DNA of 64,000 bases from a bacterium (lineage in GTDB: Bacteria > SAR324 > XYD2-FULL-50-16), in contig JAJRZQ010000038.1 of assembly GCA_024275165.1 (NCBI GenBank), positions 1 to 64,000 of the forward strand, written 5' to 3'. Positions within the stretch are counted from its first letter, which is position 1. The number at the start of each line of letters is the position of its first letter. The notes under the pieces were generated by a model. It worked only from the letters and a program-made list of their open reading frames with translations, made no database searches and had not been told where the DNA came from. The translations under genes and the position numbers were made by a program. Below, in pieces: positions 2,612 through 51,925 of this stretch.

Positions 2612-3689
2612 GTTGCGCCTTCTTGTTGCCGGGGGAGGGACGGGCGGCCATCTTTACCCCGGCATCGCCCTCGCCGAGGCCTTGTCGGAGCGGGTTCCCT
2701 TAGAGGCTCGGTTTGTGGGCACAAAAAGAGGGGTGGAGACGCGAGTCCTCCCCCCGTTGGGCTACCGCCTCTACCTGCTTTCCATTGGGGGCTTGTACCG
2801 CGTGGGATGGGTGAAAAAAGGCTTGAATCTGTTGAAGCTTCCCCTGGCTCTGTTCCAAGCATTGTGGATTTTGTTGAGCTATCGCCCTCATTTGGTGTTG
2901 GGGGTGGGGGGCTATGCCTCTGGGCCGATGCTCTTGATGGCCTTGCTTTTTGGCTTTCGTACCGCCTTGCAAGAGCAAAACGCCGCCCCGGGGATGACCA
3001 ACCGTTTTTTGGGGCCCTTGGTGCCCATTAGCTTTGTTCCCTTTGCGGGGTTGGAACAGCAGTTTAAAAATCCCTTAGCCTTAGGCAACCCTCTCCGCAA
3101 GGAATTATTGCAGGCTAGAGAAGTAAAGGTAAAACGAGCGGCAAGCCCCTTTACGATTGCGATTATCGGGGGTACCCAAGGGGCGCGGGCCCTCAACGAA
3201 GCGGTGCTGGCCATGTTGCCCCTCTTGCCCCAAACCGGGGTACGCCTTATTCACCAAACCGGGGCGGCGAATTTAGCCAAAATACAAGAGGGGTATAAGC
3301 CCTATCCCCACCTCCATGCTGAGGTGGTGCCTTTTATCCATGAGATGAGCAAGCTTTACCAAAGCTGTCATTTGCTGATCAGCCGAGCCGGTAGCGTAGT
3401 CCATGAATTGACCGCCATGGGTCGGGCTTCGATTTTGATTCCCATTCCCCTTTCTAGTGGCGACCATCAAAGAAAAAACGCGCAAAAACTAGCCGAGGCC
3501 GGGGCCGCGATTCTTTTAGAGCAAGCAGACTTAAAGGGGGAAAAATTATTTGCCTTGGTTCAAGGCTTAATGCAGGACCCGGAGCGACTCAAAAGCATGG
3601 AACAGGCTTCAGCGGGTCTATTTGCGGGCGACGCGGCAGCGAGCATGGCCGGGGCGCTCCTTGAGTTTTACGACTTCAAGAGTCTTTAA
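2601..3689 (+). CDS. murG: MurG, lipid II-forming N-acetylglucosaminyltransferase
   Basis: Transfers GlcNAc from UDP-GlcNAc to lipid I on the cytoplasmic face of the membrane, giving lipid II. The protein has 362 residues, normal for MurG. The N-terminal glycine-rich loop GGGTGGHLYPG and the second loop IIGGTQGARALN are clear. The donor-site region around SRAGSVVHELTAMGRASILIP and the following PLSSGDHQ are typical of this GT-B family. It overlaps ftsW by 11 bp, so the two are probably co-translated. The rest of the dcw cluster (murC, ddl, ftsQAZ) does not follow; the next genes are convergent and unrelated. The 3' end overlaps the convergent gene at 3676 by 14 bp. Confidence 0.96.
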   Translation: MAGKLRLLVAGGGTGGHLYPGIALAEALSERVPLEARFVGTKRGVETRVLPPLGYRLYLLSIGGLYRVGWVKKGLNLLKLPLALFQALWILLSYRPHLVLGVGGYASGPMLLMALLFGFRTALQEQNAAPGMTNRFLGPLVPISFVPFAGLEQQFKNPLALGNPLRKELLQAREVKVKRAASPFTIAIIGGTQGARALNEAVLAMLPLLPQTGVRLIHQTGAANLAKIQEGYKPYPHLHAEVVPFIHEMSKLYQSCHLLISRAGSVVHELTAMGRASILIPIPLSSGDHQRKNAQKLAEAGAAILLEQADLKGEKLFALVQGLMQDPERLKSMEQASAGLFAGDAAASMAGALLEFYDFKSL

Positions 3690-13056: not shown

Positions 13057-15582
13057 TTAGCTTTGGTATTCTTCCATCAGGTGAAAATTCAAGTAGCGGT
13101 AGATGGTTTCCTTTTTAGGGGTGATCTTTTTTTGGTAGAGCTTGAAGTATTCTTCCTTGGTGGGAATGCGCCCCAACTTGGCGGTTGCCGCGGCCAATTC
13201 CGCGCTGGCCAGATAGACCTGCGCCCCGGTGCCTAAGCGGTTGTCGAAGTTTCGAGTCGAGGTCGAAACCACTCTCGCGTTGGTCTTGACCCTTGCCTGG
13301 TTGCCCATGCAGAGGCTGCACCCGGGAATCTCGATGCGCGCGCCCATGGCCCCGAAAGCGGCATAGACCCCTTCGTGCTTGAGCTGGCTCTCATCCATGC
13401 GGGTTGGGGGGCAGATCCACAAGGTGGTTTCCACCTGATTTTTCCCCTCTGCCGCGATTTCGGCAGCGGCGCGGAAGTGACCGATATTGGTCATGCAGCT
13501 CCCGATAAAGACTTCATTGATTTTGTCTCCGGCAACCTCGCTTAAGAGTTTTACATCATCGGGGTCGTTGGGACAGGCCACAATGGGCTCGGTAACCTGA
13601 GCCAGGTCGATTTCCACCACCGCGGCGTAAGAGGCGTCCTTATCGGCCCGCAGCAGCTTGGGGTCGGCCAACCAGGCCTCCATCCCTTCAATTCGTTTTT
13701 GAATGGTCGCTTTGTCGTTGTATCGGTCGCGGATGAGGCTTTTTAATAACGCCACATTGGATTTGAGGTAATCGACGACGCTTTCTTGACTCAAGTCGAT
13801 GCTGCAACCGGCGGCACTGCGCTCTGCCGAGGCGTCGGTGAGTTCAAAAGCCTGCTCGACCGTTAGGTTGGGCAACCCTTCGATTTCTAAAATCCGCCCG
13901 TTGAAGATGTTCTTTTTGTTCTTTTTTTCTACCGTCAACAGCCCTTGTTTGATCGCAAAGTAAGGGATGGCGTTGACCGCGTCTCGCAAAGTGACGCCTT
14001 CGTTGAACTCTCCTTTAAAGCGTACCAGCACGCTTTCTGGCATCTCTAGAGGCATGGTGCCCAAGGCAGCGGCAAAGGCGACTAAGCCGGAGCCCGCGGG
14101 GAAACTGATCCCAATGGGGAAACGGGTATGGGAGTCCCCCCCCGTGCCCACGGTGTCGGGAATGAGCATGCGGTTCAACCAAGAGTGGATGATCCCGTCG
14201 CCGGGGCGTAAAGCCACGCCCTTGCGCTCGGTAATGAACTTCGGCAGGGTCTCTTGGGTGAGGATGTCGGCTGCCTTGGGGTAGGCGGCGGTGTGACAGA
14301 AGGATTGCATGACCAAGGGGGCCTCGAAGCTCAGGCAGGCGAGTTCCATCATCTCATCACGGGTCATGGGGCCGGTGGTATCTTGACTTCCCACGGTGGT
14401 CATTTTAGGCAGCACATTTTGACTCGGCAGTACCCCCTCCACCCCGCAAGCCTTGCCCACCATTTTTTGGGCCAAGCTAAAGCCTCCCTTGTGTTCTGGA
14501 GGCGGCGCGGGTTTGGTAAAGGCTTCACTCGCCCCTAAGCCCAAATGGGCGCGCGTCCGTTCGGTTAAGGCCTTGCCGATGATCAGGTTCACCCGGCCCC
14601 CGGCCCGGTATTCCTCAATCAAAATCGGGCTCAATTCAAAGGAGGCCACTTCCTTGCCCTCGGACAAGATTTTGCCTTCTTGGGTGTGAATGGTGATTTC
14701 CATTCCCGTGTTCAAGGCGCTTACATCCAGTTTTAGAGGTAGAGAGCCGGAATCTTCCGCGGTATTGTAAAAGATCGGCGCGATCGCCCCTCCTAAAATA
14801 ACCCCGCCCTTTCGTTTGTTGGGAACAAAGGGGATATCGTCGCCAATATGCCACAAGACACTGTTGCAGGCGGATTTACGCGAAGAGCCCGTACCCACGA
14901 CATCGCCTGCGAAGATCACATTTTTGCCCGCTTGGCGAAGGCCTTCAATGGTTTTGACCCCGTCGGGGAAGCGGGTCACCCCCATGGATTTCGCGTGCAG
15001 GGGAATATCTGGGCGGCTCCAAGCCTCGGCAGCGGGAGAAAAGTCATCGGTATTGATCTCCCCTTCGACCTTGTAAACCACGCCGCTGATTCGCGCGGGT
15101 AGGTCTTTGCTGTTGGCAAACCATTCCGCGTTGGCCCAGGAATCTAAAACCCGCTTGGCGTTGTCGTTGCTCTTTGCCAATTGGGCGATTTCGTCAAAGG
15201 CGATCCCCGACAAAATCAACTTGCAGAGGGCATCGGCGGCCTTGGAACCCAAATCCGGATCCACCAACAGCTTGGCTAGGGGGTGGATGTTGTAGCCGCC
15301 TACCATGGTGCCTAAAAGCTCAACGGCTCGCTCTTTGCCGATCAAGGGACTTTGCTTTGTTCCCTGGGCGATTTCGTTTAAAAACGCGGCTTTCACCTTG
15401 GCGGCGGGGTCGACCCCGGGGGAAACTCGATTGGTGATCAATTCCACTAAAAACTCGCCTTGATCGGCTGGAGGGTGCTCTAAAAGCTGAACCAGTTCTT
15501 GGGTTTGTTCCGCGTTTAGGGGCAGGGGCGGAACGCCTTGTTCAGCGCGTTCTTTTACATGGGCGTTATAGGCGTCGATCAT
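13057..15582 (-). CDS. acnB: Aconitate hydratase B
   Basis: Isomerises citrate and isocitrate through cis-aconitate in the TCA cycle; AcnB enzymes often also hydrate 2-methyl-cis-aconitate. The protein has 841 residues, with the AcnB order: an N-terminal helical HEAT-like domain (ending near residue 160), then the swivel domain (GVVYKVEGEINTDDFSPA, GDVVGTGSSRKSA), then the catalytic domains. Iron-sulfur ligands are seen at QDTTGPMT-linked segments, IGSCMTNIGHFRAA and CSLCMGNQARV. It is transcribed alone from a good promoter at 15643-15671 and ends at a strong terminator. AcnB in other bacteria can act as an RNA-binding iron sensor; nothing here tests that. Confidence 0.97.
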   Translation of the reverse strand: MIDAYNAHVKERAEQGVPPLPLNAEQTQELVQLLEHPPADQGEFLVELITNRVSPGVDPAAKVKAAFLNEIAQGTKQSPLIGKERAVELLGTMVGGYNIHPLAKLLVDPDLGSKAADALCKLILSGIAFDEIAQLAKSNDNAKRVLDSWANAEWFANSKDLPARISGVVYKVEGEINTDDFSPAAEAWSRPDIPLHAKSMGVTRFPDGVKTIEGLRQAGKNVIFAGDVVGTGSSRKSACNSVLWHIGDDIPFVPNKRKGGVILGGAIAPIFYNTAEDSGSLPLKLDVSALNTGMEITIHTQEGKILSEGKEVASFELSPILIEEYRAGGRVNLIIGKALTERTRAHLGLGASEAFTKPAPPPEHKGGFSLAQKMVGKACGVEGVLPSQNVLPKMTTVGSQDTTGPMTRDEMMELACLSFEAPLVMQSFCHTAAYPKAADILTQETLPKFITERKGVALRPGDGIIHSWLNRMLIPDTVGTGGDSHTRFPIGISFPAGSGLVAFAAALGTMPLEMPESVLVRFKGEFNEGVTLRDAVNAIPYFAIKQGLLTVEKKNKKNIFNGRILEIEGLPNLTVEQAFELTDASAERSAAGCSIDLSQESVVDYLKSNVALLKSLIRDRYNDKATIQKRIEGMEAWLADPKLLRADKDASYAAVVEIDLAQVTEPIVACPNDPDDVKLLSEVAGDKINEVFIGSCMTNIGHFRAAAEIAAEGKNQVETTLWICPPTRMDESQLKHEGVYAAFGAMGARIEIPGCSLCMGNQARVKTNARVVSTSTRNFDNRLGTGAQVYLASAELAAATAKLGRIPTKEEYFKLYQKKITPKKETIYRYLNFHLMEEYQS

Positions 15583-15642
15583 CTTCGGTCCTGGATGCTT
15601 TAGGGGTTTAAGATTTTCTTGATACTAGACAAAACTCTTATT

Positions 15643-15671
15643 ATTTTACGAAGGGAGCCTGTCTTCGTCAA
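15643..15671 (-). promoter_or_regulatory. Sigma-70-type promoter of acnB
   Basis: On the minus strand a TTGACG -35 box (15666-15671) and a TAAAAT -10 box (15643-15648) are separated by exactly 17 bp. They point into acnB, whose ATG lies about 60 bp downstream. Confidence 0.75.
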
Positions 15672-15695
15672 TGTTTCCCTGCTTTATTTTTGTAC

Positions 15696-15723
15696 TTGAC
15701 ATTTATTTTAATAGTATTAAAAT
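15696..15723 (+). promoter_or_regulatory. Sigma-70-type promoter of the DUF4336-tetR unit
   Basis: TTGACA (15696-15701) and TAAAAT (15718-15723) with a 16-bp spacer, followed by an AGGAG ribosome site at 15746-15750 and ATG at 15757. The spacer and -10 box lie inside the palindromes at 15706-15739, so a bound repressor should block RNA polymerase. Confidence 0.75.
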
Positions 15724-15739
15724 TTTAACATTATTAAAA
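15706..15739. promoter_or_regulatory. Two adjacent 17-bp palindromes, probable TetR operators
   Basis: The first, TTTTAATAGTATTAAAA (15706-15722), is a perfect palindrome around a central G. The second, TTTTAACATTATTAAAA (15723-15739), follows with no gap and differs from perfect symmetry at one position. Both cover the promoter of a unit that encodes a TetR-family protein. Autorepression by that protein, with two dimers side by side, is the natural reading but is inference. Confidence 0.75.
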
Positions 15740-15756
15740 TAAACTAGGAGTAAAGC

Positions 15757-51745: not shown

Positions 51746-51925
51746 AAGGAACCTCTGAAAAACTCCTTGCCTACCGCTTGCTCAAGCGGTAGGCAAGGAG
51801 TTTTTCGGTCTTTTCGGTGGGGAATGAAATCCACAACCTCAAGGCAAATCAATAAGTACCGCTTTTTGCTTTGGCAAGGCATCCCTGCCCTGCTGGGAAA
51901 CTCCGCGTTTTTCGGAGTTTCCTCA
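51746..51925 (+). repeat. Repeat copy R4 rearranged into a perfect 24-bp hairpin
   Basis: A 180-bp copy that lacks the CTTCGGGCTG segment. Its left part reads GAAAAACTCCTTGCCTACCG and continues to 51780; bases 51783-51806 are its exact complement across a two-base centre, giving a 24-bp perfect inverted repeat at 51757-51806. The right arm repeats the inverted end sequence of the element. Followed by TTTTTC-type sequence on both sides, it should terminate transcription in either direction. The right end is GAGTTTCCTCAAGG. Confidence 0.88.

Follow-up and report, generated by a model that had tools for sequence, protein, structure and literature searches.

Two palindromes of 17 bp that adjoin one another over a promoter in the stretch of DNA analysed here (64,000 nucleotides, hereafter the window) are very probably the paired operator of the TetR-family regulator encoded by the second gene of the unit downstream. 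The palindromes would most likely serve as the on/off switch of a small local repressor that controls itself and a metal-hydrolase gene. The reading of the sites as an operator is based on how rare they are and where they lie, on their recurrence upstream of orthologous units and on the lack of any clear further site in the genome. What we propose for TetR binding, repression, the ligand and the link between ligand and hydrolase draws on knowledge of the family.

Architecture of the promoter and the hydrolase–TetR unit

The first-pass annotation described abutting 17-bp palindromes that cover the promoter of a TetR unit, and this description was borne out: the two sites follow each other with zero gap between TTGACA and the ATG, and they include the −10 box (Table 1). 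No second promoter-like site with at least 10 matches was found on the same strand between 15000 and 17800.

Table 1. Features of the promoter region and the unit, with positions in the window.
Feature	Position	Strand	Basis or remark
−35 box TTGACA	15696-15701	+	sequence; promoter scoring
42-bp near-palindrome comprising both sites and flanks	15702-15743	.	dyad at 15722/15723 (site junction); 19/21 pairs
Palindrome 1 (predicted operator site 1), TTTTAATAGTATTAAAA	15706-15722	.	8/8 complementary pairs; −35/−10 spacer and most of −10 box
−10 box TAAAAT	15718-15723	+	16-nt spacer to TTGACA; 11/12 consensus matches
Palindrome 2 (predicted operator site 2), TTTTAACATTATTAAAA	15723-15739	.	7/8 pairs; from last −10 base over expected start point
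Ribosome-binding site AGGAG	15746-15750	+	sequence
ATG of hydrolase gene	15757	+	sequence
DUF4336-like metallo-beta-lactamase-fold protein, 224 aa	15757-16431	+	Pfam, predicted structure
TetR-family regulator, 209 aa	16416-17045	+	TetR_N, predicted structure; 16-nt overlap with hydrolase gene

The composition of the unit, a DUF4336-like gene followed by a TetR gene, was likewise confirmed. TetR_N (PF00440) matched the regulator with 41.4 bits against a cut-off of 24 (E 1.2e-10), and the predicted model (pLDDT 92.6) has the all-helical TetR fold, its top PDB matches being 3pas (the best), 2g3b and EthR entries, all of them TetR-family regulators. The top PDB sequence match to the TetR profile was Mce3R. 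A 426-residue open frame at another locus (L008, G007:C45), the second half of which matches the window TetR, may be a double-TetR protein resembling Mce3R.

The match of DUF4336 (PF14234) to the window hydrolase (24.7 bits, E 1.6e-5) lies below the curated cut-off of 28.5, as does that to the hydrolase of a relative, G001 (20.4 bits), and the more distant homologues from loci L020, L021, L022 and L023 score above it. The model of the window hydrolase (pLDDT 88.1) shows a metallo-beta-lactamase fold, with PDB 2p97, a putative metal-dependent hydrolase, as best match (E 1.3e-12), followed by metallo-beta-lactamases. The usual metal ligands of such enzymes are HxHxDH, H, D and H. Across 6 proteins the residues H69, H71, H132, D142 and H203 are invariant, and they are candidate members of this ligand set; the DH of HxHxDH reads AA in the window hydrolase and is missing in the other five homologues too.

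The pairing of the palindromes is rare in shuffled sequence

The window pair was compared with the best palindrome pair at spacings of 16-22 in 2000 dinucleotide shuffles of each region. In the 174-bp intergenic region (15583-15756), an equally good pair arose in 0/2000 shuffles for 17-mers, 2/2000 for 15-mers and 14/2000 for 13-mers; the corresponding counts for the A/T-rich 67-bp core (15690-15756) were 0, 2 and 34 of 2000. Palindrome 1 is the sole 17-mer of the window with 8/8 pairs, and since about one is expected by chance it is unremarkable when taken alone, the tandem pairing being the notable feature. No further tandem pair with at least 14/16 pairs was found in the window.

Some points favour the view that the palindromes arose by chance in an A/T-rich promoter. 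The operator core has a G+C content of 18%, at which A/T palindromes form easily; equally good 13-mer pairs arose in 34/2000 shuffles of the core, and the motif TTTAA-N5-TTAAA turned up singly in 356/20000 shuffles of 15690-15756. As a pair, however, the motif appeared in 0/20000 shuffles of either the window region or the G001 region, and among the 24 exact sites of the window's own genome (G000) and the 50 of 58 sites listed for G001, the motif stands in tandem at the two orthologous units only. We therefore regard chance as a very improbable explanation.

The 42-bp near-palindrome that spans both sites was matched in 0/2000 shuffles. Only two 42-bp stretches of the window reach at least 16 pairs, this one and another that scores 20. 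The latter is a near-perfect inverted repeat at 51761-51802 (AACTCCTTGCCTACCGCTTGCTCAAGCGGTAGGCAAGGAGTT, 20/21 pairs).

Palindromes accompany orthologous units

Fifty-seven related genomes were compared besides the window's own. TetR matches at E 1e-5 were present in 6 of the 57, and the only close one was in G001 (38%, E 2.2e-44), the others lying at about 1e-6. G001 belongs to the same family as the window organism and to a different genus. Its hydrolase gene (42% protein identity) stands just before the TetR gene (38%), with reading frames that overlap as in the window. A further and distant orthologous unit, on L020, comes from an Acidobacteriota metagenome bin (hydrolase 38%, TetR 30%).

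The first-pass annotation had pointed to orthologous units as the place to look for the palindromes. This check was run, and palindromes were present upstream of both orthologous units, with the same motif in G001 and another sequence in L020. The G001 sites, TTTTAATATGTTTAAAT (L011 1434-1450) and TTTTAATCTAATTAAAT (L011 1453-1469), lie upstream of the unit and around the −10 box of a putative promoter made up of TTGACT at L011 1423 and TAAATT at 1446-1451. When they were treated as bare palindromes, 472/2000 shuffles gave an equally good pair (15-mers, L011 1320-1497); because this test was not significant, the evidence from G001 rests on the specific motif in common, TTTAA-N5-TTAAA occurring twice. 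In L020, two 13-bp palindromes, TGAAAGCATTTCA (3592-3604) and TGAAACGTTTTCA (3612-3624), lie around a predicted −10 box, CATAAT (3603-3608). Their sequence differs from TTTAA-N5-TTAAA, which is thus shared by one ortholog only, and taken alone the pair is weak, equally good ones arising in 99/2000 shuffles for 13-mers and 576/2000 for 15-mers. The recognition region of TetR reads LGWTTPGLYYY and LGWNLPGIYYY in the two units that share TTTAA and ADVSTPALYYY in L020, a difference in line with the other operator sequence of L020.

Common to all three units is the layout, in which site 1 lies in the spacer and touches the −10 box and site 2 lies at or just past its end. Other open reading frames that match the window at E 1e-8 were sought around the orthologous units, and none was found besides the hydrolase and TetR genes in a 19-kb stretch of G001 or besides the unit in 8.3 kb of L020. 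Since no neighbouring genes match in these stretches, the operator sites seem to travel with the unit and not with the neighbourhood.

It had also been suggested that the two sites stand about 1.6 helical turns apart, with cooperative binding in mind. This geometry was not conserved: the site centres lie 17 bp apart in the window, 19 bp in G001 and 20 bp in L020, so that helical phase is no constant of these units. The same figures bear on a variant of the main reading, in which the two 17-mers together make up a single 42-bp operator, symmetrical about their junction and occupied as a whole by a dimer of dimers. The pairing across 15702-15743 (19/21 pairs, matched in none of the 2000 shuffles) speaks for such a site, but adjacent copies of one palindrome automatically yield much of such a dyad, the best 42-bp stretch in G001 has 15/21 pairs, and the spacing varies. 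The large dyad is therefore not conserved, and we consider this variant doubtful in comparison with two separate sites.

Further relatives of the regulator were few. A TetR profile found the proteins of G000 and G001 only among 52 genomes of the phylum (E 1e-15), and only that of L020's own genome among 396 sampled genomes of its phylum (E 1e-25, with up to 7 candidates scored in each genome). The window TetR protein had no match on plasmids at E 1e-8, and no relative turned up when viral contigs were scanned with a hydrolase pattern.

The predicted operator appears to be local

A wider regulon, envisaged at first pass as something that a genome scan might uncover, did not emerge. Across the whole genome (2.69 Mb) the 17-mer has no copies at up to 1 mismatch beyond the two sites, and all 22 other exact TTTAA-N5-TTAAA sites lie inside mechanically called ORFs of at least 80 aa. 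Five of the 22 (L052, L064, L074, L077 and L078) lie at most 100 nt from the earliest possible start of their ORF; every one of these sites has a possible start ahead of it, and the true start is ambiguous at L052. With the other motif sites of this genome within ORFs, a regulon is not visible, and the predicted operator seems local and confined to its own unit.

The motif was also counted against a reversed control. At up to 2 mismatches a looser pattern gave 51/42 forward/reverse hits in G000, little different from the 36/45 of the control, and 146/155 versus 102/92 in G001. Exact sites numbered 24 versus 8 in G000 and 58 versus 24 in G001. The exact motif is thus ~2.4 to 3 times commoner than its reversed control in the two genomes, and a promoter role for it was not seen in G000.

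The palindromes might instead be the target of another of the cell's regulators, the TetR gene being a passenger or acting elsewhere. At first look the genome held 7 loose TetR candidates, of which this gene alone passed E 1e-5. Outside this promoter the genome shows no clear copy of the motif between genes, unlike what a global site would show, and the motif recurs together with the hydrolase–TetR unit in another genus, among different neighbours. We consider such another regulator unlikely, and retain the co-transcribed TetR as the protein that probably binds the two sites.

Upstream of the unit lies a divergent aconitase gene (13057-15582) with Pfam aconitase B domains. A predicted promoter for it, TTGACG and TAAAAT separated by 17 nt, is located on the minus strand at 15671-15643, its −35 box 35 bp from the predicted TetR operator. 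Control of the aconitase gene by the palindromes, as a form of cross-talk, is conceivable but gained no support; no aconitase match was found near the orthologous units, in 19 kb of G001 or 8.3 kb of L020.

Regulators at other hydrolase loci

We compared 39 hydrolase loci, some with short flanks, and scored them for TetR and MarR; L012, L013, L019, L049 and L069, which are represented by other loci, were left out of this number. A co-transcribed TetR of the window type was found at 3/39 loci, namely the three that built the profile and so match by construction. A divergent MarR-family gene was present at 4/39 (L021 and L023, called by Pfam; L105 and L107, called by a three-protein MarR profile). 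A fifth MarR match, itself one of the three profile-building proteins, lies upstream of the G001 unit at a distance of more than 1 kb. By eye, GTCAAG/CTTGAC-like half-sites can be seen in the gap between the hydrolase and MarR genes at L021 785-815, L023 3815-3860, L105 2165-2220 and L107 2165-2220, and these are likely to be a MarR operator. The hydrolase matched 35 plasmid records, and four neighbourhoods from these were inspected; none of the four contained an annotated TetR gene, one had a MerR gene just upstream, and two others had ArsR and AraC genes nearby. The divergent MarR loci suggest that the hydrolase has been put under a local repressor more than once.

A bolder generalization, which we offer as speculation and judge rather improbable as a whole, is that hydrolases of the DUF4336 type form dedicated detoxification modules, induced by a ligand, in which evolution has swapped one local repressor for another, TetR or MarR. 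Each would have at least two palindromes, or arrays of half-sites, across its promoter region, and the TetR operator of the window would act as one 42-bp dimer-of-dimers site. If this were true, the natural inducer would reveal the substrate of the hydrolase.

Discussion

On the preferred reading of the palindromes as two operator sites, one TetR dimer would sit on each 17-bp site. A dimer on site 1 would cover the −35/−10 spacer and most of the −10 box, and one on site 2 the last base of the −10 box together with the expected start point, so that bound TetR would keep RNA polymerase off the best promoter candidate of the unit. Since this promoter would serve both genes, TetR may be expected to repress the hydrolase gene and its own, and would in this way limit its own supply. 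TetR would be released, and both genes turned on, by a small ligand that is probably related to the substrate or product of the hydrolase.

A self-regulating repressor and a neighbour gene under palindromes is a common bacterial arrangement. Binding of DNA by a pair of dimers is reported for the TetR-family proteins QacR and CprB, and two dimers per operator region are possible in the window too; those of QacR share ~28 bp, whereas the window has two full 17-bp sites that abut over 34 bp.

Two operators at a TetR promoter region are the classical tet arrangement, and the window unit is a new instance of what is already known. The TetR/tetA system, with its two 15-bp tet operators, likewise places two palindromes between or over promoters, where a dimeric TetR-family repressor controls itself and its neighbour, in the account given in the available part of PMC3511530. 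In that system a divergent regulator controls an efflux pump, whereas in the window the regulator is second in a unit with a hydrolase gene and the sites abut. The same part of that source counts 55 co-transcribed TetR-family regulators in three Streptomyces genomes, in line with and at most 35 bp from their neighbour, and its table rows give 1 to 3 palindromes per footprinted TetR-family regulator (PMC3511530). These Streptomyces regulators share the in-line arrangement of the window, with other proteins and other operator sequences; the binding tests in the portion available concern divergent cases (PMC3511530), whereas the window regulator is co-transcribed.

In the open-access literature searched, a TetR with two or tandem palindromic sites returned nothing relevant by those terms, and no bacterial regulator of a DUF4336 gene was found. 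The word DUF4336 occurs in PMC9993742 and PMC11313482, in the latter in a table row on an algal DUF4336 gene.

TTTAA-N5-TTAAA, present twice, is the predicted operator for a subgroup of TetR proteins that is rare among the genomes searched. The regulatory arrangement itself is an ordinary one. As a local switch on the hydrolase gene, however, it would make the ligand that releases TetR a direct route to the substrate of the enzyme.
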